This document shows, piece after piece, positions 2,166-63,600 of a stretch of DNA of 64,000 nt. The stretch covers positions 1 to 64,000 of the forward strand of contig JAGFBZ010000736.1 of assembly GCA_018398805.1 (NCBI GenBank). The letters run 5' to 3'. Under the pieces are notes generated by a model. That model was not told the DNA's origin and searched no databases. It saw nothing but the letters and a program-made list of their open reading frames with translations. The DNA is from Hirundichthys speculiger. Lineage: Eukaryota; Chordata; Actinopteri; Beloniformes; Exocoetidae. How positions within the stretch are numbered: position 1 is the first letter of the stretch; every line of letters starts with the position of its first letter. A program made the translations under genes and the position numbers.

Positions 2166-2211
2166 CAAGCTGCCGAATCTCCTACTGTGTATTTGTTCCC
2201 TGTTAAATTAC

Positions 2212-32803: not shown

Positions 32804-33396
32804 ACTCTGGATGATGAAGACCTGCAACAGCTGGAGACTAAGAGACAACACAGCTGCTGAGTAAAACATCTGTAGACCAGCTGGACGTGGCAGATCACTG
32901 GAAGACTGGGACAAACCTCTGGAACCCTGGACAGAAACATCTAAATCCACAGCAGCTGTGGAGTTCAGGTCCAGGTCTGGAACATCAGGAAGGCTTTCCT
33001 GATGCCCAGGTAGGTACCTGCCCAGGTAGATCTCTGAGTCAGAACCTGGTTCACACCTGGTTAAAGTCTGGAAGTGTTTCATGTCAGTTTGTTCTCTCCT
33101 GAAACACTGAAACAGCCAGGTCATTACTTTAATTATTGAGCCACCAGAGCAAACCATCCCCAAAATGAAGACGTGTTTCTGATTAAGGTGTTTATTTACC
33201 TGAGCTGTTTTAAAGATATTTAAAGATCACTGTTTGATGACTGGGTCCCTCATTAAAGCAGGATTCATCCTGATGTTCGCTGTCTTCAATTTCAGTTTGT
33301 ATTTATTTGATATTAATTTTTGTCTTTCCCAGTTCATCACTGCTGCATGTGGAGGCTGCAGACAACAGACAAACTGGGACTGGTTTCAAGATGTCT
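32804..33396. other. spacer between praf2 and copz2
   Basis: No gene recognised; the sequence beside the 28-bp array looks unique. Confidence 0.4.
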
Positions 33397-37450: not shown

Positions 37451-40400
37451 CACAGTTTTACCTTCCCAGAATCCTCTGCTGGATCTTTCAGGTCTGATAT
37501 CTTCCAGTTTCAGAGTCAGACAACAAAACAGAAGAAAGTAACTAATGTAACTTTACTGAAGAGCCGAGGTGTTTGTGTCTGAGCAGATCCAGGAAGGTTG
37601 AGGGCAGGTGCTCGAGCCCAGAGGAAAGATCACTCAGTCAAATGACTCTTATTTACTCTCTAGAATAAAGGAATTACAGTTCTATTAGTTTTAATTACAG
37701 TCGCTATTCCTAAAACTAAACAGACATGGAGTCACTGTGGAAGTCACAGTTTTCAGACGTCCTGATTTAAATCAACATCTTGTTGTAAAATAGCAAATTC
37801 TCCAAGACTTTTCTTTTCAACTTGAGGCTTTTGTCTTGTAATCCCCAATTTTTAACTTAGTTGTTACCTTTTGTTGTTAAATTTAGTTTCTTGAAAAACA
37901 GTTTTTGACATGAAAACTAAACTTTCAATCATAAAATCAAGAATTTCTACTGTAAAATCAATTTCACGATATTCCAACTTTTTCTCAAAGGAAGCCACTT
38001 TTTGTCAAAAAATCTCAAATTTGGCTAAACTTTGACATTTTGATGTAAAATTTCAACTGCATGTTGCAAAATGTCAAATTAAGCTGTAGCTTTATATCCT
38101 GTATTCGTCACATTTTTTTGGTAAAATTTCACAAAATCAAAACTTTTTCAATTAAATTACAATCAACCATCCTGAAATCATACATTTCTGTTGAAATATT
38201 TCAAATTTCACAATACTACAACTTTGTGAGGTAAAATCACAACTTTCTGTCATAAAATCATGACTAGCAAAACTGCAATATAGCAACTTTTTCTAGTCAA
38301 ATATCGACTTTCATAAAACTGACTTTTGACTGACTTGTATAATTATAACTTTCCACATAAAATCAAGAATTTTGGCTGCAAAATCAAAAATCGTCACAAT
38401 ATCACAACTTTTTGTTGATTAAAGTAAATTTTTGTCACAAAATTATGACTTCTAGTCAGAATTACATTTTTATGCTTAAAAATTTCAAATTTCTCATAAC
38501 TGAAACCATATGTCCTGTAATTTTGACATTTTGTTGTAAAATCACGACTTTTTGATTTAATACAACTTTTTTCTCTAAAACACACACACTAAAACACATA
38601 AAAGTAAAACTTTGTTTGTTAAGCTGCAAATTTCACAATATAGCTGAAAAAAGTTTTCTCACAAAGTAAAAAAAATCACATCTTTTTAACATAAAATGGT
38701 TGGTTGTAAAAACAACAAAATTTACAAAATTGTAACTGTTTGATAAATATGTTCTTTTTTTAATTGAACCACAAATGTTCGTTGTCAAATAACAACTGTC
38801 AGAAAGTGGAAGCTGCTCCTTGTTGACAAATGGCTTTAGACGGTGAAACGATAGTGAAAGGGCTGCTATTTTAGATGGAGAAACGACGGTGAAACGGCTG
38901 CTACTTTAGATGGTGAAGCGGCTGCTACTTTAGATGGTGAATCGGCTGCTACTGTAGACGGTGAAACGACTGCTACTTTAGACGGTTAAACGACGGTGAA
39001 ACGACTGCTACCTTACACTGTGAAACGACGGTGAATCGGCTGCTACTTTACACGGTGAAACGACGGTGAAACGTCTGCTACTTTACACGGTGAAACGACG
39101 GTAAATCGGCTGCTACTTTAGACGGTGAAACGACGGTGAAACAGCTGCTACTGTAGACGGTGAAACGACGGTGAATCGGCTGCTACTTTAGACGGTGAAA
39201 CGTCTGCTACTTTACACGGTGAAACGAGGGTTAAACGGCTGCTACTGTAGGCGGTGAAACAACAGTGAAACGTCTTCTACTTTACACGGTGAAACGACGG
39301 TGAAACGACTGCTACTTTAGATGGTGAAGCGGCTGCTACTTTAGATGATGAAACGGCTGCTATTGTAGTCGGTGAAATGGCTGCTACTTTACACGGTGAA
39401 ACGATGGTGAAGCGACTGCTACTTTAGATGGTGAAACGACGGTGAAACGTCTGCTACTTTACACGGTGAAACGACAGTTAAACGGCTGCTACTGTAGACG
39501 GTGAAACGTCTTCTACTTTACACAGTGAAACAACGGTGAACCGGCTGCTACTTTAGACGGTGAAACGACGGTGAAACAGCTGCTACTGTAGACGGTGAAA
39601 TGACAGTGAAACAGCTGCTACTTTAGATGGTGCAACGACGGTGAAGCGGCTGCTACTGTAGACGGTGAATTGGCTGCTACTTTAGACGTTGAATTGGTTG
39701 CTACTTTAGACGGTGAAGCGGCTGCTACTGTAGACGGTGAAACGGCTGCTACTTTAGATGGAGAAACGACAGTGAAACGGCTGCTACTGTAGACGGTGAA
39801 TTGGCTGCTACTTTAGACGTTGAATTGGTTGCTACTTTAGACGGTGAAGCGGCTGCTACTGTAGACGGTGAAACGGCTGCTACTTTAGATGGAGAAACGA
39901 TGGTGAAACGGCTGCTACTGTAGATGGTGAAACGGCTGCTACTGTAGACGTTGAAACGGCTGCTACTTTAGACGGCAAAACGATGGTGAAGCAGCTGCTA
40001 CTGTAGATGGTGAAACGGCTGCTACTGTAGACGGTGAAACGGCTGCTACTTTAGACGGTGAAACGATGGTGAAGCAGCTGCTACTGTAGACTGTGAAACA
40101 GCTGCTACTGTAGTCGGTGAAACGGCTGCTACTTTAGACGGTGAAACGACGGTCAAGCGGCTGCTACTGTAGATGGTGAAACGGCTGCTACTGTAGACGG
40201 TGAAATGGCTGCTACTTCAGACAGCGAAACAACGGTGAAACGGCTGCTACTTTAGACGGTGAAACGGCTGCTACTTTAGATGGGGAAACAACGCTGAAAC
40301 GGCTGCTACTTTAAACGGTGAAATGACGGTGAAGCGGCTGCTATTTTAGATGGTGAAACGACGGTGAAGCGGCTGCTATTTTAGACGGTGAAACGACGGT

Positions 40401-43400
40401 GAAGCGGCTGCTAATTTAGACGGTGAAACGACGGTGAAGCGGCTGCTAATTTAGACGGTGAAACGACGGTGAAGCGGCTGCTAATTTAGACGGTGAAACG
40501 ACAGTGAAGCGGCTGCTATTTTAGATGGTGAAACGACGGTGAAACAGCTGCTACTGTAGACGGTGAAACGACGGTGAAGCGGCTGCTACTGTAGACGGTG
40601 AAACGACGGTGAAACGACGGTGAAACGACGGTGAAACGGCTGCTACTGTAGACGGTGAAATGACTGCTACTTTAGACGGTGAAATGACGGTAAAACGGCT
40701 ACTACTTAAGACGGTGAAATGACGGTGAAGCGGCTGCTATTTTAGATGGAGAAAAGACGGTGAAACGACAGCTACTTTAGATGGTGAAGCGGCTGCTACT
40801 TTAGATGGTGAAGCGGCTGCTACTTTAGACGGTAAAGCGGCTGCTACTTTAGACGGTAAAGCGGCTGCTACTTTAGACGGTAAAGCGGCTGCTACTTTAG
40901 ACGGTGAAGCGGCTGTTACTTTAGACGGTGAAACGATGGTGAAACGGTGCTACTTTATACAGGGAAACAACTCTGAAACAGCTGCTACTGTAGACGGTGA
41001 AACGGCTGCTACTTTAGACAGGGAAACAATGGTGTAACAGCTGCTGCTTTAGATGGTGAAACGGCAGTCAATTGGTTGCTGCTTTAGAAGGTGAAACAAC
41101 GGTGAAACAGCTGCTACTGTAGACGGTGAAATGACGGTGAAACGGCTGCTACTTTAGACGGCGAAACAACGGTGAAACGGCTGCTACTTTAAATTGTGAA
41201 ATGGCTGCTACTTTAGACGTTGAAACAGGTGCTACTTTAGATGGTGAAACGACTGCTACTTTGGACTGTGAAACGGCTGCTACATTAGATGGTGAAACGG
41301 CTGCTACTTTAGATGGTAAAATGACGGTGAAAAGGCTGCTACTGTAGACGGTGAAACGACGGTGAAAAAGCTGCTACTTTAGACGGTGAAACAACCCTGA
41401 AACAGCTCCTGCTTTAGACGGCGAAACGATGGTAAAACGGTGCTACTTTAGACGGGAAAACAACTCTGAAACAGCTGCTACTGTAGACGGTGAAATGGCT
41501 CCTACTTTATATGGTAAAACAACGGTATAACGGCTGCTGCTTTAGACGGTGAAACGACGGTGAATCGGCTGCTGTTTTAGACGGTAAAACAACAGTGAAA
41601 CAGCTGCTACTGTAGATGGTGAAACGACCGTGAAACGGCTGCTACTTTAGACGGTGAAACGATGGTGAAATGGCAGCGACTTTAGACGGTGAAAAGACAG
41701 TGAATCGGCTGCTATTTTAGATGGTGAAATGGCGGTGAAACAGCTGCTACTTTAGACGGTGAAACAACGGTGAAAGGGCTGCTAGTTTAGACGGTGAAAC
41801 GACAGTGAAGCGGCTGCTACTGTGGACGGTGAATCGGCTGCTAATTTAGACCGTGAAACGACGGTGAAACAGCTGCTACTTTAGATGGTGAAGCGGCTGC
41901 TACTTTAGACGGTAAAGCGGCTGCTACTTTAGATGGTGAAACAACGGTGAAGAGGCTGCTACTGTAGATGGTGAAATGGCTGCTACTGTAGACGGTGAAT
42001 CGGCTGCTACTTTAGACGGTGAAACGACGGTGAAACAGCTGCTACTGTAGACGGTTAAACGACGGTGAAACAGCTGCTACTTTAGATGGTGAAACGATGG
42101 TGAAACGGCTGCTACTGTAGATGGTGAAACGATGGTGAAACGACTGCTACTTTAGACGGTGAAAAGACGGTGAAACGGCTGCTACTGTAGACGGTGAAAC
42201 GATGGTGAAACGATGGTGAAACGGCTGTTACTTTAGACGGTGAAACGACGGTGAAGCGGCTGCTACTGTAGATGGTGAAACAGCTGCTACTGTAGACGGT
42301 GAATCGGCTGCTACTTTAGATGGTGAAACGATGGTGAAACGGCTGCTACTTTAGACGGTGAAACAATGGTGAAATGGCTGCTACTTTAGACGGTGAAACG
42401 AAGGTGAAGCGGCTGCTACTTTAGACGGTGAAACGACGGTGAAACAGCTGCTACTGTAGACGGTGAAACGATGGTGAAGTGGCTGCTACTGTAGATGGTG
42501 AAACGGCTGCTACTTTAGACGGCGAAATGACGGTGAAACGGCTGCTACTGTAAACAGCGAAACGATAGTAAAACGGTTGCTACTTTAGATCGTGAAACGG
42601 CTGCTACATTAGATGGTGAAACGGCTGCTACTGTAGACGGTGAAACGACGGTGAAGTGGCTGCTATTTTAGACGATGAAACGGCTGCTACTGTAGACGGT
42701 GAAACGACGGTGAAACAGCTGCTACTGTAGACGGTTAATCAACGGTGAAACAGCAATTACTTTAGATGGTGAAACGATGGTGAAATGGCTGCTACTGTAG
42801 ACGGTGAAACGATGGTGAAACGGCTGCTACTTTAGAGGGTGAAACGATGGTCAAGCGACTGCTACTGTAGACGGTGAAATGGCTGCTACTTTAGATGGCG
42901 AAACGACTGTGAAATGGCTGCTATTTTAGACGGTGCAACGGCTGCAACGTTAGACAGGGAAACGACGGTGAAATGGCTACTACTTTAGACGGTGAAACAA
43001 CGGTGAAACGGCTGCTACTGTAGACGGTGAAACGATGGTGAAACGGCTGCTACTTTAGACGGTGAAACGGCTGATACGTTAGATGGGGAAACGACTGTGA
43101 AACAGCTGATACTTTAGACTGTGAAACAATGGTGAAACGGCTGCTACTGTAGACGGTGAAACGACGGTGAAACGGCTGCTACTGTAGACGGTGAAACGAC
43201 GGTGAAACGGCTGCTACTGTAGATGGTGAAACGATGGTGAAACGGCTGCTACTGTAGATGGTGAAACGATGGTGAAACGACTGCTACTTTAGACGGTGAA
43301 AAGACGGTGAAACGGCTGCTACTGTAGACGGTGAAACGATGGTGAAACAATGGTGAAACGATGGTGAAACGGCTGTTACTTTAGACGGTGAAACGACGGT

Positions 43401-46400
43401 GAAGCGGCTGCTACTGTAGATGGTGAAACAGCTGCTACTGTAGACGGTGAATCGGCTGCTACTTTAGATGGTGAAACGATGGTGAAACGGCTGCTACTTT
43501 AGATGGTGAAACAATGGTGAAATGGCTGCTACTTTAGACGGTGAAACGAAGGTGAAGCGGCTGCTACTTTAGATGGTGAAACGACGGTGAAACAGCTGCT
43601 ACTGTAGACGGTGAAACGATGGTGAAGTGGCTGCTACTGTAGATGGTGAAACGGCTGCTACTTTAGACGGTGAAACAATGGTGAAATGGCTGCTACTTTA
43701 GACGGTGAAACGAAGGTGAAGCGGCTGCTACTTTAGACGGTGAAACGACGGTGAAACAGCTGCTACTGTAGACGGTGAAACGATGGTGAAGTGGCTGCTA
43801 CTGTAGATGGTGAAACGGCTGCTACTTTAGACGGCGAAATGACGGTGAAACGGCTGCTACTGTAAACAGCGAAACGATAGTAAAACGGTTGCTACTTTAG
43901 ATCGTGAAACGGCTGCTACATTAGATGGTGAAACGGCTGCTACTGTAGACGGTGAAACGACGGTGAAGTGGCTGCTATTTTAGACGATGAAACGGCTGCT
44001 ACTGTAGACGGTGAAACGACGGTGAAACAGCTGCTACTGTAGACGGTTAATCAACGGTGAAACAGCAATTACTTTAGATGGTGAAACGATGGTGAAATGG
44101 CTGCTACTGTAGACGGTGAAACGATGGTGAAACGGCTGCTACTTTAGAGGGTGAAACGATGGTCAAGCGACTGCTACTGTAGACGGTGAAATGGCTGCTA
44201 CTTTAGATGGCGAAACGACTGTGAAATGGCTGCTATTTTAGACGGTGCAACGGCTGCAACGTTAGACAGGGAAACGACGGTGAAATGGCTACTACTTTAG
44301 ACGGTGAAACAACGGTGAAACGGCTGCTACTGTAGACGGTGAAACGATGGTGAAACGGCTGCTACTTTAGACGGTGAAACGGCTGATACGTTAGATGGGG
44401 AAACGACTGTGAAACAGCTGATACTTTAGACTGTGAAACAATGGTGAAACGGCTGCTACTGTAGACGGTGAAACGACGGTGAAACGGCTGCTACTGTAGA
44501 CGGTGAAACGACGGTGAAGTGGCTACTACTTTAGACGGTGAAACAACGGTGAAACGGCTGCTACTGTAGACGGTGAAACGATGGTGAAACGGCTGCTACT
44601 TTAGACGGTGAAACGGCTGATACGTTAGATGGGGAAACGACTGTGAAACAGCTGATACTTTAGACTGTGAAACAATGGTGAAACGGCTGCTACTGTAGAC
44701 GGTGAAACGACGGTGAAACGGCTGCTACTGTAGACGGTGAAACGACGGTGAAACGGCTGCTACTGTAGATGGTGAAACGATGGTGAAACGGCTGCTACTG
44801 TAGATGGTGAAACGATGGTGAAACGACTGCTACTTTAGACGGTGAAAAGACGGTGAAACGGCTGCTACTGTAGACGGTGAAACGATGGTGAAACAATGGT
44901 GAAACGATGGTGAAACGGCTGTTACTTTAGACGGTGAAACGACGGTGAAGCGGCTGCTACTGTAGATGGTGAAACAGCTGCTACTGTAGACGGTGAATCG
45001 GCTGCTACTTTAGACGGTGAAACGGCTGATACGTTAGATGGGGAAACGACTGTGAAACAGCTGATACTTTAGACTGTGAAACAATGGTGAAACGGCTGCT
45101 ACTGTAGACGGCGAAATGACGGTGAAACGGCTGCTACTGTAAACAGAGAAACGATGGTAAAACGGTTGCTACTTTAGATCGTGAAACGGCTGCTACATTA
45201 GATGGTGAAACGGCTGCTACTGTAGATGGTGAAACGACGGTGAAGTGGCTGCTATTTTAGACGATGAAACGGCTGCTACTGTAGACGGTGAAACGACGGT
45301 GAAACAGCTGCTACTGTAGACGGTTAATCAACGGTGAAACAGAAATTACTTTAGATGGTGAAACGATGGTGAAATGGCTGCTACTGTAGACGGTGAAACG
45401 ATGGTGAAACGGCTGCTACATTAGAGGGTGAAACGATGGTCAAGCGACTGCTACTGTAGACGGTGAAATGGCTGCTACTTTAGACGGCGAAACGACTGTG
45501 AAATGGCTGCTACTTTAGACGGTGCAACGGCTGCAACGTTAGACGGTGAAACAACGGTGAAACGGCTGCTACTGTAGACGGTGAAACCGCTGCTACTTTA
45601 GACGGCGAAACGACGGTGAAATGGCTGCTACTTTAGACGGCGAAACGATGGTGAAACGGCTGCTACTTTAGACGGTGAAACGGCTGATACGTTAGATGGG
45701 GAAACGACTGTGAAACAGCTGATACTTTAGACGGTGAAACAACGGTGAAACGGCTGCTACTGTAGACGGTGAAACGACGGTGAAACGGCTGCTACTGTAG
45801 ACGGTGAAACGACGGTGAAACGGCTGCTACTGTAGACGGTGAAACGACGGTGAAACAGCTGCTACTGTAGATGGTGAAATGACGGTGAAACAATGCTACT
45901 ATAGATGGTGAAACGACGGTGAAACGACTGCTACTTTAGACGGTGAAACAACGGTGAAGAGGCTGCTACTGTAGACGGTGAATCGGCTGCTACTTTAGAC
46001 AGTGAAACGATGGTGAAACGGCTGCTACGGTAGACGGTGAAACGACGGTGAAGCGGCTGCTACTGTAGACGGTAAATCGGCTGCTACTTTAGATGGTGAA
46101 ACGATGGTGAAACAGCTGCTACTGTAGATGGTTAAACAACGGTGAAACAGCTGCTACTTTAGATGGTGAAACGGCTGCTACTGTAGATGGTGAAACGATG
46201 GTGAAATGGCTGCTACTTTAGAAGGTGAAACGACTGTGATGCGGCTGCTACTTTAGACGGTGAAAAGACAGTGAAACGGCTGTTACTTTAGACGGTGAAA
46301 CGACGGTGAAGCGGCTTCTACTGTAGATAGTGAAACGGCTGCTACTGTAGACGGTGAATCGGCTGCTACTTTAGACGGTGAAACGATGGTGAAACGGCTG

Positions 46401-49400
46401 CTACGGTAGACGGTGAAACGATGGTGAAACGATGGTGAAACGGCTGCTACTTTAGATGGTGAAATGATGGTGAAACGGCTGCTACTTTAGATGGTGAAAC
46501 GACGGTGAAACAGCTGCTACTTTAGACGGTGAAACGATGGTGAAACGGCTGCTACTTTAGACGGTGAAACGACTGTGACGCGGCTGCTACTTTAGATGGT
46601 GAAACGACGGTGAAACAGCTGCTACTGTAGACGGTGAAACGATGGTGAAACGGCTGCTACTGTAGACGGTGAATCGGCTGCTATTTTAGACGGTGAAACG
46701 ATGGTGAAACGGCTGCTACTGTAGACGGTCAAACGATGGTGAAACAGCTGCTACTTGAGACGAAGAAAAGACGGTGAAGCTGCTGCTACTTTAGACGGTG
46801 AAACGACGATGAAACAGCTGCTACTGTAGACGGTGAAACGATGGTGAAACAGCTGCTACTTTAGAGAATGAAACGACGGTGAAACAGCTGCTACTGTAGA
46901 CGGTGAAACGCCGGTGAAACAGCTGCTACTTTAGATGGTGAAATGATGGTGAAACGGCTGCTATTTTAGACGGTGAAACAACGGTGAAGCGGCTGCTACT
47001 GTAGATGGTGAAACGACTGCTACTTTAGATGGCGAAACGATGGTGAAACGGCTGCTACTTTAGATCGTGAAACGAAACGGCTGCTACATTAGATGGTGAA
47101 ACGGCTGCTACTGTAGACGGTGAAACGACGGTGAAGCGGCTGCTATTTTAGACGGAGAAACGATGGTGAAACGGTTGCTACTTTAGATGGTGAAGCAGCT
47201 GCTACTTTAGACGGTGAAACGGCTGCTACTGTAGACGGTGAATTGGCTGCTACTTTAGATGGTGAAACGACGGTAAAACAGCTGCTGCTGCAGACGGTTA
47301 AACGATGGTGAAACAGCTGCTACTTTAAATGGTGAAACAATGGTGAAATGGCTGCTACTTTAGACGGTGAAACGATGGTGAATCGGCTGCTACTGTAGAC
47401 GGTGAAATGGCTGCTTCTTTAGACGGCGAAATGACGGTGAAACGGCTGAGTCAATATCACCATAAGGTGCCTTTGAGACTTCCCAATTTCCCTCAAAAAA
47501 AGCTGAGATTTTCCATTTAACTTCACAGTTATTGTATTAAGTAGATGTTATGCTGTTAGAAATGCATGTTGGTCAAGCTCCCACACTTTTTATAAATTAA
47601 CTGCAAGCAGACAATGTACACGCAAGCAGCAAAATATGTCAACCCTGTCACGGACAATTTCAAAGTAGAATAAATACTTTATAATTACACAGTGATTATA
47701 AAATGTATATTTTCAGAAAGCCATTTAGTCCCTTTCTCAACACTATGTTTTAGTTAATGGGAAAAGTATTTGAATAGTAATGAAATTAGGGCAAACTATT
47801 TGTTTCTCTATAAAATCAGCGAGAATTGCACTTTCTTTTCTAAATAAAATCTAACAACAAAGATATCTGGTCAAACTTTCAAACAATTCTATTTGGCCCT
47901 CACTTGTTTATAAAGGAATCACAGAAAGAGTTTGCTTACTTGTGAAAATAAATTGTTTATTTTCTTCAAACATGAAAATAACAGGATGGACAGTAACATG
48001 ACAGGGTGGACCTTGGGCATAACAGGGTGGACACATTGTGATAGGTCATTGAAAGGCCTCATTTTGCAATAAATCAAAAAGAAATTATGTAAAAAAAAAA
48101 AAAAATGACAGAGGTCCTTTTCCCATGTAGGGGGAAATTACCAGGTGAACAGACCGGTTTTGATCCACTCTACCTGCAGCAAAACACCAAAAATTAGCCA
48201 TTAATGTGGCATTCCAGAGTAACATCATTCTGCCCAGTTAAAGTCAAACATTCAACTGTAGAACGAGAAGAAAAATGTTTTTTTTAAGTGGAGAACGATT
48301 GATTTGAAAAAACAGAATATCACTGAACATCACTGAGACACATCTCCATACATTCTTCCTTTCTGCAGAGGCATGGCTCAATTCTGCAGTTGCTGTTCCA
48401 CATATTTCCATGCAAACGCTTCAATCTGTACAGAACGTTTGTTCACAGCCTATGGTTCTGGTATTAGGCAAAGTACCTGCCAGTCATGGTACCAACAGAT
48501 GTCATCCTGGAGACTTGGCCAATGGAACTTGTTTATGCCATAGCGGTGCATACACTTAACTTTCACACTGTGCCCTTCAACATCTCTGATAACACCTGGG
48601 TATGCTTCATTGTCGTAATTAACGACGCACCACTCTCCAATGTGCTTTACCTCAATGATTTCTGGTCTCCAAGGATTATCTGGTGTCTTTCCACATGCTG
48701 GGGACTCGTCGGATGAAACAGGAACATTAGCTAGAGTGACTTCTTGAAGGTTATAGCAAGAACAGTCCAAAACACCTTCCTCCCTTTTACACAGACATGA
48801 AATGTCTCTGTATTTCATTTGGCCAGGTTTCAGACTGATAGCTTGGTGGATTCTCATAGTGCCTTTTATGGCAGCTATTGCAGGTACCTCAGTCTTGGAT
48901 TCAATATCCCTCTCTGGGACGTAGAACAGCTCGACGGATGTGTCAAGGCTTTTCAGCTTGTCATACAAGGTCTGGGTATCAGGAATGTCTCCTCCATGGG
49001 CTACAATCCGGTCTGCTGACCTCTTGAGGGCCCCACCCACACCATCTGGTGCCCCCTTGCCATGACTAGCCTCAAAGAAATTCCACGTTATTTCTTTGAA
49101 GCCATACTTGTAGGGTTCTGTTGAGAGGTAGAAGAAATTTCCCTTTTGTCGATACTGCGTTGCAGGCCCGTCACTGAAAAAATGAAGTATGCTGACTTGT
49201 GGGTGTCGTTCTCTCAGTACCTTCAGAACTGGATCGAGGTGGGCCCAGATGGCCACAGGGTCGTGTCTTCTGGAGGGTGATATGGAGCAGAAGGTGTGTG
49301 GCGCTTGTTCACCAGTGGTGTAGAGCACTCCAGTGTGCAGACTGGCCTGCTTGTGTGAACCACCAAAATGCACAGATTGTATTTCTTCACTGTACTTGCA

Positions 49401-52400
49401 TGAGTAATTTTCGCTAAAATCTATATGCAAGAGGGACTCGTTGTGCTTCAGGCTGCTCCTGAGCTCCCTGTAGGCATCAAACTGCCATTTAATGTTGAAA
49501 ACATGGCGCCTAAAATGGAGAAGCCTCTCCTGGAAGTCTGTGTTAAGGTCATGCTCTGTTGTTGTTAGCTCCCTTTTCACTGTGATTGTTGACACCTTCT
49601 CATCCTTCGTGATCTTCTCTGTCATCCACTGAGATAAACGGATCTTCTCTTTCCCAGGAGTTTTCAGCAATGGGTGACAAGTTAGGAAGCATTCCCTGCA
49701 CTCACCGTAAGCACAGACCTTGGCTTTCGGGTCACACATGGTTGCCACAGACATTTCCTCTATGTTTCTTGAGGACAGTAACCCTTGGCTCTGCAAGGCA
49801 TTGGCAATGAATTGCAAGTTCTCATGTTTTTTGCAGAGACATGTGTCACGGTCAGAGGAAGAGGGGGTTACCACCCAAAAGGGTCTGAGACGGCAAAAGG
49901 AGGTGTATGACATGTGGCCAATATGCTCAGAGACAAACCTCCTATGCAAGTTCTTCATTGTATCAGTAAGCAACCTCTTTTGCATCTTTTTCTTCAGCTG
50001 TGTGACTGTTTGTTTGCGGCCAGTCGTCATTCGACTGACATCATCTCGAAGAAAAAATGATGTAACATTCTTTCTTATCTCATTTCGACTGATGCACTTC
50101 CTCCCATGATAGGTAAGATCCACAGGATACTTTGCTCTCTTCTTAGAGTAGCCAAAAGCAGTCTGGGCATGCTTTTGGAGCTTGTACTTCTTCAGAATGT
50201 TTCCACTGACCACTTTTGCTATCAACTGCTTCTCTCTGTTTGTTTTTGCATGTTCATATTTTCTTCTAATATCCTCAATCAAGGATGTATGGAAAAGAAG
50301 AGCTCTCTTGATAGGTGAATTCACTTTTTTACGTGCCAACAAAGCATTCACTTGTGTACGTGGTGATTTGGATGATCTTTCTTTCTTGGCCCTATGGTAC
50401 CTCTTCTTATATTTCTCAGTTTTAGTTTTGTCTTTTTCGAGCTGTGCCTCCAATATTTCGATTTGTTTTTTCAGTTTCCTCTTCGAACTCCTTCGAATGC
50501 TTTCCCCTTGACGCTGTTGCCTGAAACACAAAATATTTGTGAGGATTTTTAGTAAGATTTTAGCAAGTTAGTTGTCAATATGTCATTTCTTGGGGACACT
50601 TGATACTTTAAAATAATTCAAAACTTTCTAATAAGTCTCATCAGCTACACTTCCAATGATCTAACCTGGAGGGCCCTGGCTCACATTGATTTTCAGGAGT
50701 TTCAGCAGCTGCAGGGGAGTTGGGTGGTGTCTCTGCCTGTAGCAAAGCACTGGCCCTGTTTCTGATTCTGGCTCGACTTTTTGCCTCTCTCCATTTCTTT
50801 CTTTTTGCCCTCTTCTCTCTCTCACTGAGCTCATTGACACCCTTCTTCTTTCCAGCCTCTCTGTCTTTTTTCCATTTGTCCCTTTCCTTCTCAAGATACT
50901 TTCTTCTTCTTTCTGGGTCAGCATCACGGCGTTCCCGATATCTCCTTGCTATCTCAGCTCCTTTTGATCTCTTACCTTGAAAAACATTCAAAATCTTTTT
51001 CAAGAGGCTTGCTGATACATTTTACTATGTATAGCATGTCCTGTTATAAAATGTCTGTAATAGCTGTTGTAATATATGTAATTTTATCAGCATGTGGCCT
51101 AAACAAATGCAAATGTACTTCCTGTCATGAACCATGTCCACCCTGCCATGGAAGGCTTGCTGACAGGGTGGACAATGACAGGGTGGACATTTTTGGTTAA
51201 TGTTAGCATTTATTGAGCACATGGTGGACCTTCACTTAGCAACATGATTCAGTTAGCAAGTGGACTGTGTGCTGTTTAACACATATATTTCAAATTTCTG
51301 AAAGGTTTTTATATTAATTGATATTTCACTATGACAGAGTTGACATGTTAAGCTTGACAACATCTAACTACACACCTAATATGATGAAAATTATGAAAAA
51401 TAAGTGTAAATACTTACTCTGCAACCAGCCACTGTTTCAGTCTTCATTGAAGAAAGACAAAATGGTGGTTGTGATGTCACTAAAAACATCAGTGGGTTTC
51501 TTAAAGGGACAGTTAGCCCAAAATGACAGGGTGGACAGCAATTTCAGGAACACATGCAAAATGTTCAATATTATTATGAAAATAGAATATACATGATCAA
51601 AATGACTTGTTTTATCAAATAACTTGTTGTGACAATAAAATCATGTTAAAAAGATTTTGATTTAGTATCATTTAACCACTTATTACACACACTGAAGTTA
51701 GCAGAACAGTGTGTGGGACATGCCAAAATCGTGTAAATCCAAAGAAAAAAATGGTATAAAATGAAGGAAACATATTTTAAGAGACATATTATTGTACTGA
51801 TATGTGTGTAAGTCTTTGGTCACTTATAATAAGACCTCAGAGTTTAATTATTTTGCTACATTTTCATGATGATTGAGTGATTCTGATGAGGACACCAAAG
51901 GCACTTTATAGTGATATTGACTCGGCTGCTACTTTAGATGGCGAAACGACAGTGAAACGGCTGCTACTTTAGATCGTGAAACGGCTGCTACTTTAGACTG
52001 TGAAACGGCTGCTACATTAGATGGTGAAACGGCTGCTACTTTAGACGGTGTAACGGCTTCTTTTTAGATGGTGAAACGATGGTGAAACGGCTGCTACTTT
52101 AGACAGTGAAACGGCTGCTACTGTAGATGGTGAAACGGCTGCTAGTTCAGACGGTGAAATGACGGGGAAATGGCTGCTAGTTTAGATGGGGAAACGACGC
52201 CGAAACAGCTGCTACTTTAGACGGTGTACGGCTTCTTCTTTAGATGGTGAAACGATAGTGAAACGGCTGCTACTTTAGATGGTGAAACGGCTGCTACTGT
52301 AGACGGTGAAATGGCTGCTAGTTTAGAAGCTGAAATGATGCTGAAACGACGCTAAAACGACGCTGAAACGGCTGCTATTTTAGACAGTGAAATGGCTGCT

Positions 52401-55400
52401 ACTTTAGACGGGGAAGCGATGGTGTAACGAAGGTGAAACAACGCTGAAACGACTGCTACTGTAGACAGTGAAACAGCTGCTACTATAGGCGGTGAAACAA
52501 CGGTGAAACGACTGTGAAACGAAGGTGAAACGATGCTGAAATGATGGTGAAACGGCTGCTACTGTAGACGGTTAAAAGACGGGGAAACGACGTAGGAAAC
52601 GATGGGGAAACGACTGCTTCGTTAGACGGTGAAACCGCTGCTACTTTAGACGGTGAAACCGCTGCTACTTTAGACGGTGAGGCTGAAACAGCTGCTACTT
52701 TAGGCAGGAAAACGACGGTGAAACGACGGCGAAATGACAGGGAAACGACGGTCAAACGATGGTGAAACGGCAGTGAAACGACGGTGAAATGACGGGGGAA
52801 ACAATGGGGAAATGACTGCACAGCGCAAATTCTGCTGGAAGGACTCTTTCTGGTCAGTTGAACGACAGCTCATTTATGGATGTTGTCGTCCTCCAGCAGA
52901 AGTCGCAGATTCAACTCTTGTCCTCTGACCCTTTGCTATATGTCTTCCTCTTCTCTCTCTGCCCCACTTTCCTATTTCTCAACTTACAATCATAAAGGCC
53001 AAAAGAGCCGCAAAATCTTTAAAAAGAAAGGACGATTTCAAAGGGGGAGGAGCTTGAGCACCACCTGCTCATACGTGTTTTGTATCAGTGCTGTTGGATT
53101 GCTCATTGCTAAATCGATGTAGATCCATGGATCCTTACAGCGCTACTATTCAGACAGTTCTGTTGGAGGCAGCGTAGCCCACGGGATTTGTGCTCTTCAA
53201 AGATACCACGTTGGGTCACCATTTATGTGTGACAGACAGTAAGACTTTATTGAGAAGTTAGAAGGTTAAGGTCAGACACATTAGTCCTTTCTCTGCAAAA
53301 TCCCATCTTGTGATGCTGTCTGGTCCATGTTTGTATTCATGGTTATCTAGTGACGAGTGTCGTGAGCCTGACCTCACTTCAATATTGTTGCTCAGTAAGT
53401 TCCCTTCTGTGTCACACCAGGATAACTGAAACTTCTGTGTTTAATCCTTTTAATTCTTTACACTGGCAAGAAGCTGATTTTAGCTGGAGCCCGTGTTTAG
53501 CCTCGTTGTTCTGACGCTCCCTCTTTCTCTGCATTTTATATTGTCATTATCACATCTCTGTTGGGTCAAGCAGGATGTTCCCAGTCCTTCTAAAAAATCA
53601 AGGCGATGCTGAAAGAGCTGGTTCTGCTTTGATGGCTTGTATCACAGCATTCAGTCCATTTCCATCCCCGTCTTCTTCGATTCTCTTTGGGCTGAAGCTG
53701 GACTGGACTTCTGGTTCTAAGGCTCTGGTCTAAGTTCTGTGATACACTCTGACTGTGAATCATTGTGAGTCAGTGCATAACAGAACTTTGTCCCGGCTCT
53801 GACAACTCCTCAGATGGACCTGTAGAGATCCAGCTGCACCTCCTCCCTGAGATGAGTGCTCTACCAGGAAGGAGCAGCTTTTTTCTCCTCTGTAAAACAG
53901 GATTTTCAACAGACTGGATATGTCATTCCCATCTTGGAGACCAATCTGGGATATTTTTTCTCCAGTTAAGTTGGGCCATCTTTGGATTATTGTTTTCCTC
54001 CTGATGGCTATTCTCAGTCACCTCAGAGAGCAGGAGCAGAAGAGTATCAGCAGGTGATCAGCAGGATCTGGACACAACGAGAACAAAGCTTCCAACCTCT
54101 GAAACCTTTGGGTGACGTCAAAAGGTCTTTGTCCAGTTCATCTTCTCCAGTCTATGGGAGTCTGTTGGGATAATATGGAACTATATCTAAGATGAGAAGG
54201 AGGTTTAAAACGACCCACTGGTGTTGGAGCTCTGGATGTGACAGGAGCACAGCTAAATTATTGAACATGTCTCTTCCATGTTGTTGCAGGAACCTTCCCT
54301 CTACACAGTAAAAGCCGTTTTTATACTTGACAATGATGGAAACAGACTTCTGTCCAAGGTGAGTTTTAAAGTGATCTTCTCATATTTAATCCCTTTTACC
54401 TCAATTTATATTTACTCCTTTATGTAATCTGTGGTGTCGTTAAACGATCCTGAGAATCATCCTCTGTCACAGTTGAAACACCACTGCTTTTCCCTCTTTG
54501 GTTCCCCCTCGCAAATGAACAATCGAACCAACGCAACGGTTCCCCTCGCAAACGAACAATCGAACCAACGCGACGGTTCCCCTCGCAAACGAACAATCGA
54601 ACCAACACGACGGTTCCCCTCGCAAACGATCCAACGCGACGGTTCCCCTAGCAAACGAAAAATCGAACCAAACCAACGGTTCCCCTCGCAAACAAACAAT
54701 CGAACCAACGCGACGGTTCCCCTTGCAAACGAACGATCGAACCAACGCGACGGTTCCCCTCGCAAACGAACAATCGAACCAACGCGACGGTTCCCCTCGC
54801 AAACGAACAATCAAACCAACATGACGGTTCCCCTCGCAAACGAACCAACGCGACGGTTCCCCCTCGCAAACCAACAAATGAACCAACGCGACGGTTCCCC
54901 TCGCAAACGAACAATCGAACCAACGCGACGGTTCCCCTCGCAAACGAAGAATCGAACCAACGCGACGGTTCCCCTCGCAAACGAAGAATCGAACCAACGC
55001 GACGGTTCCCCTCGCAAACGAAGAATCGAACCAACGCGACGGTTCCCCTCGCAAACGAACAATCGAACCAACGCGACGGTTCCCCTCGCAAACGAACAAT
55101 CAAACCAACATGACGGTTCCCCTCGCAAACGAACCAACGCGACGGTTCCCCCTCGCAAACCAACAAATGAACCAACGCGACGGTTCCCCTCGCAAACGAA
55201 CAATCGAACCAACGCGACGGTTCCCCTCGCAAACGAAGAATCGAACCAACGCGACGGTTCCCCTCGCAAACGAAGAATCGAACCAACGCGACGGTTCCCC
55301 TCGCAAACGAAGAATCGAACCAACGCGACGGTTCCCCTCGCAAACGAAGAATCGAACCAACGCGACGGTTCCCCTCGCAAACGAAGAATCGAACCAACGC

Positions 55401-57597
55401 GACGGTTCCCCTCGCAAACGAACAATCGAACCAACGCGACGGTTCCCCTCGCAAACGAACAATCGAACCAACACGACGGTTCCCCTCGCAAACGAACCAA
55501 CGCGACGGTTCCCCCTCGCAAACCAACAAATGAACCAACTCAACAGTTCCCCTCGCAAACGAACAATCGAACCAACGCGACGGTTCCCCTCGCAAAAGAA
55601 CAATCGAACCAACGGGACGGTTCCCCTCCCAAACGAACAATCGAACCAACGCGACGGTTTCCCTCACAAACGAAGAATCGAACCAACGCGACGGTTCCCC
55701 TAGCAAACGAAGAATCGAACCAACGCGACGGTTCCCCTCGCAAACGAACCAACGCGATGGTTCCCCCTCGCAAACCAACAAATGAACCAATGTGACGGTT
55801 CCCCTCGCAAACGAACAATCGAACCAATGCGACGGTTCCCCTCGCAAACGAAGAATCGAACCAACGCGACGGTTCCCCTCGCAAACGAAGAATCGAACCA
55901 ACGCGACGGTTCCCCCTCGCAAACCAACAAATGAACCAACTTGACGGTTCCCCTCGCAAACGAACAATCGAACCAACGCGACAGTTCCCCTCGCAAAAGA
56001 ACAATCGAACCAACGCGACGGTTCCCCTCGCAAACGAACAATTGAACCAACGCGACGGTTTCCCTCGCAAACGAACAATCGAACCAATGCGACGGTTCCC
56101 CTCACAACGAAGAATCGAACCAACGCTACGGTTCCCCTCGCAAACGAACGATCGAACCAACGCGACGGTCCCCCTCGCAATCGAACCAAAGCGACGGTTC
56201 CCCTCGCAACGAAGAATCGAACCAACGCCACGGTTCCCCTCACAACGAGGAATCGAACCAACGCCACGGTTCCCCTCGCAAACGAACGATCGAACAAACG
56301 CGACGGTTCCCCTCACAACGAGGAATCGAACCAACGCGACGGTTCCCCTCGCAAACGAACGATCGAACAAACGCGAAGGTTCCCCTCGCAACGAAGAATC
56401 GAACCAACGCGACGGTTCCCCTCGCAACGAAGAATCGAACCAGCGCGACGGTTCCCCTCGCAACGAAGAATCGAACCAACGCGACGGTTGCCCTCACAAA
56501 CGAACAAACGAACCAACGCGACGGTTCCCCTCGCAACGAGGAATCGAACCAACGCGACGGTTCCCCTCGCAAACGAATGATCGAACCAACGCGACGGTCC
56601 CCCTCGTAAACGAACAATCGAACCAACGCGACGGTCCCCCTCGCAAACGAACAAACGAACCAACGCGATGGTTCCCCTCGCAACGAACAATAGAACCAAC
56701 GCGACGGTTCCCCTCGCAAACGAACGATCGAACCAACGCGACGGTCCCCCTCGCAAACGAACAATCGAACCAACGCGACGGTCCCCCTCGCAAACGAACG
56801 ATCGAACCAACGCGACGGTTCCCCTCGCAAACGAACGATCGAACCAGCGCGACGGTTCCCCTCGCAAATGAACGATCGAACCAACGCAACGGTTGCCCTC
56901 GCAAATGAACAAATTTCTGCAGAGAAACATGGGACTAATGTCAGGAGAAGAACTAAAGCATTAAAGCCACTGTATGTAGTAATACCACTTCTGACCACAT
57001 GGGGGTGTACAGATCTGTTGCATTGACAAAAGAGCCACTGACAACCAAAAGATGAAAAGGACAAAAAGGAAGAGGCACCTCTGGTCCAGCTGGTGGTTCA
57101 GGAGCATCCCAGCCCCCCAGACATAGAGAGAGATGTTTTACTTCAGTCCTCATTTCTGTTTCAGTACTACGATCCTGAGCTGTACCCCTCCATGAAGGAG
57201 CAGAAGAACTTTGAGAGCAACGTTTTCAACAAAACTCACAAGGCAGACAGTAAGTTCTTGTTTCTGTGCATCTTTCGTGCTTCCTCCCTTCAGTGTTCTC
57301 AGTCCTGAACCTCTGCGATGGTTTTAGCCGTGGAAATTAAAAAGCAGTCCCATCTCTGTTTCTGACCTGGTGGATGCTGGGAGTGTCGAGACAAACCTGC
57401 TCAGCTGCTCCTCCGACACCTGATCCGATCCCGGCATTCTCGTCGCCCTCTCAGTGTTCCTCCTTTTGTTCCAAACTCCTCCTTCATTCCTTCTTTTATA
57501 CACTTCTCATTTTCTCCCTGTTATGCTCTGTCTTCCCGCTCAGCATCTCTTTATTCTTTCTTCTAACCAACTCATTTAATCCTTTTTTGTGTGTAAA

Positions 57598-57643
<46 letters not shown>

Positions 57644-60600
57644 CCGCCGCCGGATAATTTTGATCGTCGCGTCATTAACCGAATCGTCTTTGACTCTGCA
57701 GATGAGATCGCGTTCCTGGAGGGGATGACCATCGTGTACAAGAGCAGCATCGACCTTTTCTTCTACGTGGTGGGAAGCGCTCAGGAGAATGAGGTGCAGT
57801 GAGTTTAGACTTTCCCCTCAGAGCAACATTTTAGCGGGAAATGCAGACGGATCGTGTTTTTAACAGAACAAATGTTTCAACGAAATCACAAATTACAAAT
57901 GAAAGTTTTAATTGTGTTTTATAAAAACTTCGGCAACTGTGCTGCTACATCTCAGTTGGCTGAATTTCATGATGACTGTAAGGGGGCGGAGCTATGTACC
58001 TCATCAGGTAAAACTATATAAACAACGTATGCATAATTGGGGGGGGTGGCCTTTAGACTGATGGTGGACAGAAACAATGGTCACCACTTAGCTGCTTGGC
58101 ACCGCCTTGTGTTGTTTGGACAGATTTGATCAGGACGAATGTAATCCACATCATAGATTAGTATTAGCTAAGCCGACCAAGCTAAGATAACTGACTGTGA
58201 TTGACAGAAGGTGGGCGTGTTCCAGTCAGCCCTGATTGCTTCACTCATTTCCAAAATGGTGCTGCGTACAAACACTAACTCTTCAATACCACTCATCTGG
58301 AAACCAGTGGGTGATGTCATAGGGGGTGTGGCTTAGCTGTGAAACCAATTTCAGAAGATTTCACACCCCACAGGGGAAAGGGGTGGGGCCACGTTGAGGG
58401 GCTGTTCCCCCCTCCTAAAACCAGCTGCTGTGAACTTTGATTCTTTCTGTGTGGTGACCAAACTGTGTAACAAACGTTTCATTAATTCAATTCAATTCAG
58501 TTTTATTTGTATAGCATCTGTTACAATGTCAATTGTCTCCAGGCACTTTACAGAGACCCAGATCATGACCCCCAAGCAAATATCATTAACTAAAATTATA
58601 ATATTAAATCCAATCAAGGATAATGGCAGGTAAAAAACTCCCACAGAGGGAGAAAAAAAACCTTTAAGCCAAACAGAGGCAAGAAAAAACTCCACTTTAA
58701 GAGGAAGAAACCTAAACTCATTAAGAGCCGAGGAAGTCCTGTTGACCTTTGGAAAAGGTTTTAATTTCTCCTTTACACTGAAACAGAGTCTGAACTGGAG
58801 CTCATGTGACTCTGTCTGCTGTCCTCATCCATGTTATTGATCTGAAATCAGTTACAGGTGTTACACTGATCTTATTTCATTTCCTGAATTTTTGTTCTTT
58901 TTCCTTTTCCAGCTGATGCTGATGTCAGTTCTCAACTGTCTGTTTGACTCCCTCAGTCACCTGCTCAGGTGAGTTCCTTCATGGAGGCTTTCAGAGGGTT
59001 TGAGGAGTGAAAACACAGCAGGTTTTATCCAGAAACATGGTGTTTGAAACACTGGATTTGAATGATGAATAAATGAATAATCCAGACAAACAAGGCAGCT
59101 GAATAAACACCTGCAGACGCTTCAGTTATGTTTCGCTTCCGCCTGTTTGAGACTTTCCAAAGCTGTGCGCAGCTCTCTCATCACTGGCACGTTTGTTCCA
59201 CATCATGGTTTTTTTCATGACTGACTGCAACGTTGTCAGACAAACAGCAGCTGATGCGGTTGCCGTGGAAACTGTGAGTGATGGAGGCGGGCAGAGTTTA
59301 TATTTAAGATTTTAGCTGCTCAATGAATTATGTCACAGACCAATGAAGTTTTCAAGAGTCTAATATGTTGACTCTATATGTGATATATATTCAGCTGAGT
59401 GTGTCAAACATTCAGATGCTAAATAACAGAGCTGGAAACCACTACAGATCCAGGTGAGCCCGTAGAAAATCACGTGACACGCCTCTGGCCTCACTTAGTA
59501 CTCTACCGACCGCTAGAGGCCGCGGTTCCTCTACCGACCACTAGAGGCCGCAGTTCCTCTACCGACCGCTAGAGGCCGCAGTTCCTCTACCGCACACATG
59601 ATCTGAGAAGACTGAAGCAGAAAAAAATAAAAAAAATCTGTATCACTTTCAAAAACCTTTGGCTTTTGGCTGTATTCTGGAGCTTGTAGCTATTTCTTTT
59701 TATTTATTTACTTATTACTGAGTTGTCTACTTATATTTACTCATCAGTTTTTTATGATTATAAAAATAATAATTGTCATTTGTTTCTTTCTCGTTGCCTC
59801 GTTGGTTGAGAGGGTCAGAGGATGGGCGGGAGGGTTTGGAACGTTATCACTGAATCTATCAAATTTATCTGTGAATGAAATGAAAAAAAAAAACATTTAA
59901 GCCGTTCTTAAAAGTAACATTCAGACATCTGCAGCAATAGTGAACTGGTGTTAAAATAAATGTGGGTTTGGTGAATATTTGCAGGAAGAATGTGGAGCGG
60001 AGGTGTCTGCTGGACAACATGGATGGAGTGTTCCTCGTAGTGGATGAAATCATCGATGGAGGGTAAGACTCCTTCTGTGTTAATGAGACCTCCTCCCAGC
60101 AGCAGCACAGAGATCATCCAAGTCATGTCTTAATCACACAAATCATGATGCAACAGCACACCAAACAAGAAAAAAATACTCTTTAGTTTAGTCCTGTAAT
60201 GATCACAATAGAGAACCGTCACTAGCGAGCAGCTGCTACGTGCTACAAACATCCTGGTATCAGTTTAAAGATTGTAATGGTGTCAGGATGACCACTCTGA
60301 CTAAAACTCAGTGAACTAGCAGTTTAAGAACTACAAAAAAAAAACAACTTCATTTCCTGCAGCCCAACTCTGAGTCCTGTCTTATCTCTGTTGTTTCAGC
60401 ATCATGAATCAGATTCCAGTAGAAAACTCAACTAGATTAGAGCAAACATACAATATATATTTTTATTCTGCCTGGATGACGCCTGATGCAGTGAGTTTTT
60501 GTGAACTGTCCTTTGATTTTATTGGCTGTGAGGATTCATCCAGAACCATGAATGCGTTGCTGAGATATGTCCTTTTAGGAGCACCCACAGCTCAGCAGCT

Positions 60601-63600
60601 GGTCCACATGGGGGCGCTAGCCCACATACTGAAGAGGTCAGCTGATAGAAACTCAAAACAGTTTTATTTGAAACATCTATGTTTAAAAAAAAAACAGTTT
60701 TAATAGTTTAGTGCCTGAAAAAAACCTCAGATATGACTGATTTAGACAGTCGGTCCAAACGTCTTCTTCAAAAACCTCTAGAAACCTTGTTCTACAACAG
60801 GAAAATCAGTCTTGGTCCAATAAACAGTGAGATGTTCTAGACTGTGGAAGGTCCAGATGTTTGAACAGATGTCATCCAGACAGATGTGAGCTCTAAAAGT
60901 GTCAGATTCATCTTCATTTACTCTGTCCTGCTAATACATGCATTTAATTTTCCACTACTGCTGGACTCTTGTGTGTTACCTTTATTTTGATGCCAGTTTA
61001 ATTCATATAAATGTTCTAGTGGCTGAGATATACTCAACTTCAACTTAAATTAGACGTGTCAGCTTTGAACAGGAGTCTCTAAAATAGTCTTGCAGATCAT
61101 TCTTGAGTCTATAAACGCCCAGAAAGCAGTTTCGTTAGTAACGACAGTCCTGCTGGTTGTTTTTCTCCCTTTGCCAGGGTGATTCTGGAGAGCGACCCCC
61201 AGCAGGTCCTTCAGAAGGTCAACTACAGGGTAGGACATATCTGGTCTTTTTCACTGAAATCACCTGAAAAAAAATCTCTCTGGACCATGTTTCCACTGAG
61301 CTCTCCACAGCTGTTTTCAGCATCTTCCCGCCTCTTCTCACCTGCTTCACCTTTCTGTCTCCCCCTTTCTCCCTCTCTTCTTCTTCTTCTTCTCCTGGTG
61401 CGCGTCAGCTTGTGTCAGAGCAAGCCTACGGCTTCGTCCTGTTTGATTACATCACTGGTAACCTAGAGGCTCAGACAGACAGGAGCCAGCTGCTGTAGAC
61501 AGACAGACAAACGGACGGAGGGTGAGGGGGGGGTTGTGGAGGACAGGGAGGTTGATGGGGGGAGTAATGTGTGAGGCAGATGACGTAAGTGCATGGTGAG
61601 AACATGTGGACTGACCCTCTGGTGGTTGAAGTGGTTGTCGTCCACTGACCCAGCTATGGACGGACTAACAGACTACATCAGCAGCATGGCTCACACCTGC
61701 AGAGTTGTTGGCTAACCTGTCGATGCCTGTCCACACGAAAAGATCTTTAAAATCTCAGTCACCTGTGTGAGCGTACCACTCCAGACCACATGAGGGCAGC
61801 ATGACGGAGACCTCCTGAGTCAGCTCCCCCTACCTTCCTAAGCTTCTGTAGTCACTCCTGTAGTCAAATTACAGTACAATGACCCGAGTTCACTGTTGAT
61901 ATTAGCATTAACACCTACTGTAATAGCTGACGGTGTTGATCACAACGGTCAGTCTCTACACCTCTGTGTGTTTCGGGGCAAACAGCTGAACTATTTAATT
62001 TAGTGTTTTATTGAGGAAGCTTCCAGTAGGTGTGTTTTTATGTTTGTGTGACTTTGAGTGAAATTATCTTTTACAAAGACCCGTCCTTTGACTGCATTAG
62101 CCATTAGCTCACAGGACAGAAAGATACACTCACCCATTCACTCAACTGTTGTGTTGGTTTGCGGGGAAACGTCGTATTCGTTTGTTCAAACAGGGAACCG
62201 TCACTTTCGATTGGTCGTTTGCAAGGGCAACCGTCGCGTTGGTTCGATTGTTCGTTCGTTTGTGGGGAACCGTCGCGTTGGTTCATTGTGTCCGTTTGCG
62301 AGGGGAACCGTCGCGTTGGTTTGATTGTTCATTTGCGGGGAACCGTCGCATTGGTTCGATTTTTCGTTCGTTTGCGGGAAACCGTCACATTGGTTCGATT
62401 GTTCGTTCATTTGAACCGTCGCGTTGGTTCGATTGTTCTTTCGTTTGCGGGGAACCGTCGCGTTGGTTCGATTGTTCGTTCGTTTGCGGGGAACCGTCGC
62501 GTTGGTTCGATTGTTCGTTCGTTTGCGGGGAACCGTCGCGTTGGTTCGATTGTTCGTTCGTTTGCGGGGAACCGTCGCGTTGGTTCGTTGTGTTCGTTTG
62601 CGAGGGGAACCGTCGCGTTGGTTCGATTGTTCGTTTGTTTGCGAGGGGAACCGTCGCATTGGTTCGATTGTTCGTTCGTTTGCGAGGGGAACCGTCGCAT
62701 TGGTTCAATTGTTTGTTCGATTGCGGGGAACAGTCACGTTGGTTCGATTGTTCGTTCGTTTGCGAGGGGAACCGTCGCGTTGGTTCGATTGTTCGTTCGT
62801 TTGCGGGAAACCGTCGCATTGGTTCGATTGTTCGTTCGTTTGAACCGTCGCGTTGGTTCGATTGTTCGTTCGTTTGAACCGTCGCGTTGGTTCGATTGTT
62901 CGTTTGTTTGCGGGGAACCGTCGCGTTGGTTCGATTGTTCGTTCGTTTGCGGGGAACCGTCGCGTTGGTTCGATTGTTCGTTCGTTTGCGGGGAACCGTC
63001 GCGTTGGTTCGATTGTTCGTTCGTTTGCGGGGAACCGTCGCGTTGGTTCGATTGTTCGTTCGTTTGCGGGGAACCGTCACGTTGGTTCGATTGTTCGTTC
63101 GTTTGCGGGGAACCGTCGCGTTGGTTCGTTGTGTTCGTTTGCAGGGGGACCGTCGCGTTGGTTCGATTGTTCGTTCGTTTGCAGGGAACCGTCGCGTTGG
63201 TTCGATTGTTCGTTCGTTTGCGGGGAACCGTCGCGTTGGTTCGATTGTTCGTTCGTTTGCGGGGAACCGTCACGTTGGTTCGTTGTGTTCGTTTGCGGGG
63301 AACCGTCGCGTTGGTTCGATTGTTCGTTCATTTGCGGGGAACCGTCGCGTTGGTTCGATTGTTCGTTCATTTGCGGGGAACCGTCGCGTTGGTTCGTTGT
63401 GTTCAGTTGCAGCAGTTTCTTCACTTTCCATCTGCTGAACTGAACTGTGTGATGACCAGTTGTTTCAGTTAGTGAATCGGTTCAGTTCGTGCACTTTTCC
63501 ATCGGTCTTTGGAACTCATTTCTGGTGACCAACACATCACCATGTAGCTCGAGGGCCCTCTAGTGGTTGTAGGAGCCATATTCACTGATGTGGTCAGACC

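Follow-up and report, generated by a model that had tools for sequence, protein, structure and literature searches.

What kind of mobile element interrupts a satellite array in Hirundichthys speculiger, and why does it carry short repeated sites far inside its ends? We analysed a 64,000-nucleotide stretch of this genome (contig JAGFBZ010000736.1, positions 1 to 64,000, forward strand; hereafter the window), in which a 4,476-bp DNA transposon occupies positions 47448-51923. Its terminal inverted repeats (TIRs) are 28 bp long and identical at 26 of 28 positions, and GGCT, a 4-bp target duplication, borders it on each side. When the element and one GGCT are taken out, the flanks join into an uninterrupted satellite unit (...GGTGAAACGGCTGCTACTTTAGATGG...), within arrays that span ~38834 to 52795. 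The element, its TIRs, the duplication and the restored unit had been read from the letters alone in an earlier note, whose element ends we adopted, and the coordinates, length, TIRs and satellite restoration were borne out on re-measuring. The element is a cut-and-paste DNA transposon, fairly young and slightly damaged. We consider it likely that it is of a Sola-like kind and carries a putative transposase-binding subterminal array, in which the distances of the sites would be selected and their sequence specific to each family. That it might be an ordinary host gene, as the annotation of its fish homologs as 'uncharacterized protein' genes could suggest, has practically no chance, being refuted here by the TIRs, the duplications, the deleted copies and the insertion into the satellite.

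Among repeated 13-mers in the element, the best has 10 occurrences with up to two mismatches, versus four in each of three shuffles. A 15-bp motif, ATGACAGGGTGGACA, is found at 10 places with up to three mismatches and at three more with four (L690, L1503 and L3769); these three were excluded from the site list. The ten 13-mer matches include L3769 but not the weak site R6. At one end, the ten listed sites are ~190 and 540-580 bp inside the element; at the other, they are 390, 585 and 740-800 bp inside it. A genome-wide count of the exact 14-mer TGACAGGGTGGACA gave 42, compared with 16 for the reversed pattern: 10 occurrences fall in the five copies of the element, 17 in two 30-bp minisatellites and 15 elsewhere. 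Both minisatellites (loci L038, C2403:141500-143300, and L039, C378:212300-213600) consist of the window-element site in head-to-head pairs, and about 60 copies of a related site lie in or beside an element at locus L031 (C1977); such satellites may have been born from subterminal sites.

Five other families of the same genome carry seven or eight sites each at nearly equal distances, every family with its own variant of the motif (Table 1, where site centres are counted from the left (L) or right (R) end and (-) marks the minus orientation). In a common orientation the motifs read TGACAGGGTGGACA in the window family, TGACACCAGTGACA in C874, TGACGGGGTTGAA in C932 and C2324, TGACGGAGTTGACA in C1260, C1987 and C323, TGGTCGCACCACATGATA in C828, and GGTTGCGCCACCTGACAT in C2187, C846 and C2166. 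The window, C874 and C1260 motifs contain two GAC triplets 9 bp apart, which by their sequence are possible half-sites. The right-side sites of C1260, whose right end is degenerate, sit ~8 bp further in, and two window sites, L696 and R700 (four mismatches), are not common to the other families.

Such spacing might reflect descent alone, that is, slow-evolving or rarely indel-hit subterminal DNA that has kept old repeats without selection on distance, an explanation that we regard as rather unlikely. Same-slot sites of the window, C874, C2324 and C1260 families show 47-74% likeness, with every low value coming from a comparison with C874, versus 85-93% for selected sites within one element, a likeness inflated by the choice of sites for their match to the motif; the ends of different families, including the DNA between the sites, give no blastn match at 1e-3. 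Repeats evolving neutrally would be expected to diverge from one another inside a single element, which counts against descent. Descent draws support from masked global alignments of the flanks, which in six pairs scored from -1.0 to 7.7 standard deviations (z) from shuffles (4.1 for the right side of window/C874, 7.7 for that of C828/C2187), and from the common length of most two-ended full-length relatives, 4.4-4.5 kb.

This residual flank similarity, which means that simple descent may account for some of the agreement, and the inflated likeness within elements are among several points that weigh against our main reading. Agreement between the window family and C828, C2187 and C1260 is weaker within ±6 bp (3, 3 and 2 coincidences, respectively), as 2,087, 1,275 and 13,727 of 200,000 random placements reached these numbers in a test that assumes independent sites and unrelated families and whose counts measure coincidence, not function. 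It is clear only at ±14 bp, where neighbouring slots can choose one site. The degenerate ends of C1260 were set by hand, and three of the six motifs (window, C2324 and C1260) are mutually 73-74% alike. C108 has no 13-mer above shuffles, and both full-length copies of the window family are broken. The sister-group element C1224, with its long TIR, has no comparable array (its best 13-mer occurs six times in the whole element, versus four in two shuffles), showing that the array does not extend to the superfamily as a whole.

The motifs could instead bind a host factor for transcription or silencing, or serve the transposase gene as promoter elements. In favour of this, six of the ten are placed upstream of the gene, no more than 0.81 kb from the right end, a promoter location. 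Against it, the remaining four are found at the gene's 3' end, and families within one genome differ in their motif (at the same slot, C874 is 47-52% like three others), which is expected of an element-encoded binder and not of one shared host protein. We think this explanation improbable. Most economically, we infer from the sequences, these sites would be bound by the transposase that the element itself encodes, with set distances needed for a long end complex. The 4-bp duplication, a full-length sister, three deletion derivatives, a predicted integrase-like RNase H core, and three near-invariant Asp with an invariant Lys are established. A transposase multimer would bring the two element ends together and bind the TIR tips and the array of 14-15-bp sites, the latter probably contacted by its basic N-terminal part; a core with three catalytic Asp (DDD) would cut at the GRGT tips, and the ends would be joined across a 4-bp, mostly AT-rich stagger. 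Site distances would be under selection, and site sequence would change together with each family's transposase. A more specific version, to which we give little credence, takes the putative transposase sites as marks in ~195-bp steps (near 190, 390, 585 and 740-800 bp), about one nucleosome repeat. The enzyme would then read the ends as positioned chromatin, with distances kept over deep divergence and the marks rewritten together when its DNA preference changes; that such steps point to nucleosomes is speculation.

The host assembly (1.04 Gb) was searched with the TIR pattern, allowing up to three mismatches, and gave nine matches, which represent five copies, and none for the reversed control. 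The second full-length copy, C1591:179449-183923, is 98.9% identical to the window element (Kimura two-parameter distance, K2P, 0.011; 98.6% counting gaps), supporting fairly recent movement, as the earlier note had proposed from the TIRs and the open gene. The other three (C988, C1970 and C2730) have one common internal deletion, from element position ~1862 to 3716-3739; K2P distances among these three, and between them and the full-length copies, are 0.034-0.043. A perfect TGAT duplication flanks the C1591 copy; the duplications, which the earlier note had proposed to collect from further copies, are mismatched in C2730 (AGGT/AGAT) and C988 (AAAT/TCAT), and the final bases of one end of C1970 are degenerate. 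The common deletion at three loci with different flanks suggests that the deleted derivative itself moved. The two TIR differences of the window element, C-to-T and G-to-A inside CACC-ATAA-GGTG / CACT-ATAA-AGTG, keep a small dyad at both ends; copy C988 does not keep it at its right end (CACA-ATAA-AGTG).

Among related families, TIRs begin GGGTGATTCTCTGAATCCGG in C932 and C2324, GGGTCATTCTACA in C874, C342 and C518, and GGGTCAATGAC in C828, C2187, C846, C2166 and C2361; in the sister-group C1224 the TIR is ~700 bp long and begins GGGTCATTCCACCTC. Fifteen of the 22 family loci examined are two-ended and seven lack two ends. The 4-bp duplication, previously noted at one locus, recurs in these elements: in the two-ended ones it is perfect in 11 (GGCT, TGAT, ATAT twice, ATAA twice, ATTT, TTAT twice, ATAG and TACT), has one mismatch in three (C2730, C874 and C2166) and two in one (C988). 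Ends were set without using the duplication in C1591, C988, C2730, C2361 and C1224, where three of five are perfect; in the remaining relatives the end search favoured matching duplications, in several of them to a degree that weighs against our main reading. Two loci, L034 (C342:47400-51700, element 1036-4070, duplication TTAT) and L036 (C518:62300-66600, element 457-3482, duplication ATAG), hold internal-deletion derivatives of the C874 family. A 269-aa open frame in L034 lacks the catalytic core and fuses the C-terminal beta domain to N-terminal sequence; by its sequence the product is a possible repressor.

The transposase belongs to a large protein family, with 547 homologs at E 0.01 or better. 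The best named matches are teleost; among 120 matches listed, the named ones are mostly from fish (Gymnodraco, 88%), mostly called 'uncharacterized' or 'hypothetical', with chiton and scallop in addition, and many are unnamed metagenome proteins. Identities to fish relatives have no obvious fit to fish relationships (88% for Gymnodraco, also 88% for a Coregonus protein but across 37% of the query, and 67% for Pygocentrus). Relatives P0112 and P0116 have an extra segment, ADGDCLPH..., which we take to resemble an OTU-type cysteine protease motif. Within the same genome, C874 and C108 are 52-53% identical, C2324, C932, C828, C2187, C846, C2166 and C1260 ~35-63% by matched piece, and C1224, the most distant, 31%. 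Searching with the C1224 protein opened up another deep group, of 1,332 proteins at E 0.001, and the two groups align over 595 columns (probability 100, E 2.5e-79, 17% identity). No Pfam transposase model matched the window-element protein or the other members scanned; the Pfam search proposed earlier gave no placement.

Structure prediction gave an RNase H-type core resembling retroviral integrase and mariner, the fold for which the earlier note had proposed to look. In alignments of the element's own group (A1, 78 rows) and of the deep sister group (A2, 49 rows), the two Asp that it had picked (its D480 and D563, here D479 and D562) hold. Its Glu (E596, here E595) probably does not: it is present in 78/78 A1 rows and sits in a loop of the model, and in the sister group it is Ala, Gly or Pro where the Asp at D604, 42 residues past the second acid and followed seven residues later by an invariant Lys, is kept. 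By conservation and predicted fold the triad is most likely DDD (D479, D562 and D604), not DDE as first labelled. The Cys clusters noticed before correspond to an invariant Cys/His cluster ahead of the core, and the SH3/Tudor-like segment to a C-terminal beta domain, whose matches to SH3/KOW/Tudor are weak (E ~0.1-0.4). The core is predicted to be RNase H-like as in retroviral integrases and mariner/Mos1, and in the model, as in the former, it is preceded by a Cys/His cluster and followed by a beta domain. It differs in having Asp as its third acid, and a PDB profile search gave nine matches at E 1 or better with no integrase or transposase among them.

With DDD and 4-bp duplications, Sola is the nearest described kind. 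This superfamily (Sola1/2/3) is said to go back to Bao et al. in 2009. The excerpts available describe Sola as having a DDD transposase, 4-bp duplications and a length of 2-9 kb (PMC10741241), Sola2 of slime moulds as having AT-rich AWWT duplications (PMC3627910), and Sola as occurring in zebrafish, medaka and stickleback but not in tetraodon (PMC4746887). Here a DDD triad is inferred from conservation in the two deep groups and the predicted fold, and the duplications are 4 bp; three of the 11 perfect ones fit AWWT (ATAT twice, ATTT), and ATAA, TTAT, ATAG, TGAT, TACT and GGCT do not. We hold membership in Repbase's Sola to be fairly probable, assigned by the published description and not by sequence comparison, which narrows the 'uncertain superfamily' of the earlier note to a Sola-like kind and does not prove it. 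Academ, Chapaev/CMC and Ginger are superfamilies with 3-6-bp duplications to which the element might belong instead, a placement that we think improbable. Chapaev/CMC and Academ are DDE superfamilies; the triad here looks DDD, with the Glu nevertheless kept throughout the element's own group. Their duplications are of similar size to those found here, as are those of Ginger in the part of PMC10741241 available, and the likeness to Sola is one of description; according to the same part of that source, Ginger has TG...CA ends, unlike GRGT, and TIRs of 40-270 bp. The window element, with ends GAGTC...GACTC and a 28-bp TIR, was rejected as a Ginger. PiggyBac and Kolobok make TTAA duplications, a sequence that none of the 15 two-ended elements has at its ends.

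Ac/Ds and CACTA elements also have short subterminal repeats close to their ends, and we know of no case there in which repeat order and distances are kept across diverged families. The P element and the zebrafish P-like THAP9 transposon likewise have subterminal inverted sites well inside their ends, with spacers of ~100 bp (fly) and 400 bp (zebrafish); in the available portion of the source (PMC7776569) they have 8-bp duplications, a THAP domain and one subterminal repeat pair, in contrast to up to ten family-specific sites over 0.8 kb here. A fixed-distance array is not mentioned in the available excerpts of the Sola descriptions, and none was described in the literature found, as far as the sources could be consulted, by a search that excluded subscription journals and Repbase Reports.

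The gene had been described as two exons encoding 802 aa without a stop. Its two long exons have no in-frame start codon ahead of the conserved region, so that a short third exon upstream is needed; an ATG with a GTAAGT donor, placed by splice signals, gives an 801-aa model, and an alternative junction 800 aa. The frame of the window element stops 24 codons short of the C1591 stop at a codon through which the four other copies read, three of these being internally deleted, with other damage. At least 15 residues follow this position in 72 of the 77 other A1 rows, indicating that the removed tail is widely kept, and a tail Trp is found at one position in 86% of A1 rows having a residue there. 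The C1591 copy is frameshifted between residues ~548 and 561. Neither full-length copy therefore encodes a complete protein, and the gene is not intact as first thought; assembly error may be the source of the stop or the frameshift.

Table 1 Features of the window element, and site centres in six families
Feature	Position	Strand	Evidence
Whole DNA transposon	47448..51923	- (transposase gene strand)	TIRs, duplication, second full-length copy C1591:179449-183923 at 98.9%
Target duplication GGCT, left copy	47444..47447	.	sequence
Left TIR GAGTCAATATCACCATAAGGTGCCTTTG	47448..47475	+	sequence; genome pattern search
Site L1, 2 mismatches to family motif	47637..47651	-	motif search
Site L2	47978..47992	+	motif search
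Site L3	47998..48012	+	motif search
Site L4	48019..48033	+	motif search
Exon 3: coiled coil, Cys/His cluster, RNase H core, Cys pairs, C-terminal beta domain	48450..50520	-	premature stop 48450-48452
Proposed catalytic D604, start of helix after fifth strand	49044..49046	-	D in 78/78 A1, 49/49 A2; model helix 490-507
Proposed catalytic D562 (FFSDG), end of fourth strand	49170..49172	-	D in 77/78 A1, 49/49 A2
Proposed catalytic D479 (HIDFSEN), first strand of predicted RNase H core	49419..49421	-	D in 78/78 A1, 49/49 A2
Exon 2, basic RRDADPERR...SEREKR region	50666..50970	-	motif also in full-length homologs
Site R6, weak, 3 mismatches	51114..51128	-	motif search
Site R5	51135..51149	-	motif search
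Site R4	51160..51174	+	motif search
Site R3	51175..51189	+	motif search
Site R2	51331..51345	+	motif search
Inferred exon 1, 10 codons, start ATG, donor GTAAGT	51418..51447	-	splice signals only
Site R1 (ATGACAGGGTGGACA)	51523..51537	+	motif search
Right TIR, 26/28 identical, both differences inside CACYATAARGTG	51896..51923	-	sequence; genome pattern search
Target duplication GGCT, right copy	51924..51927	.	sequence
Site centres, window	L196(-), L538, L558, L578, L696; R802(-), R782(-), R756, R742, R700, R586, R394		
Site centres, C874	L195(-), L559, L578; R783(-), R756, R741, R586, R393		
Site centres, C2324	L197(-), L538, L558, L576; R782(-), R758, R743, R399		
Site centres, C828	L187(-), L525, L545; R763, R743, R586, R394, R187		
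Site centres, C2187	L186(-), L523, L542; R766, R745, R588, R188		
Site centres, C1260	L197(-), L530; R810(-), R789(-), R766, R750, R595, R402		

A protein family that Pfam does not cover in the members scanned gains a mechanism from the likely DDD triad and the 4-bp duplications, and an array with kept distances and family-wise replaced sequence provides a natural experiment on how transposase and site specificity change together. Elsewhere in the window, one 28-bp minisatellite unit or its complement recurs at 7853-8356, 31623-32806 and 59501-59592. Large minisatellites occupy 3442-6761 (36 bp), 21207-23757 (21 bp), 54500-56912 (37 bp) and 62215-63400 (39 bp), the last two being reverse complements of related units.

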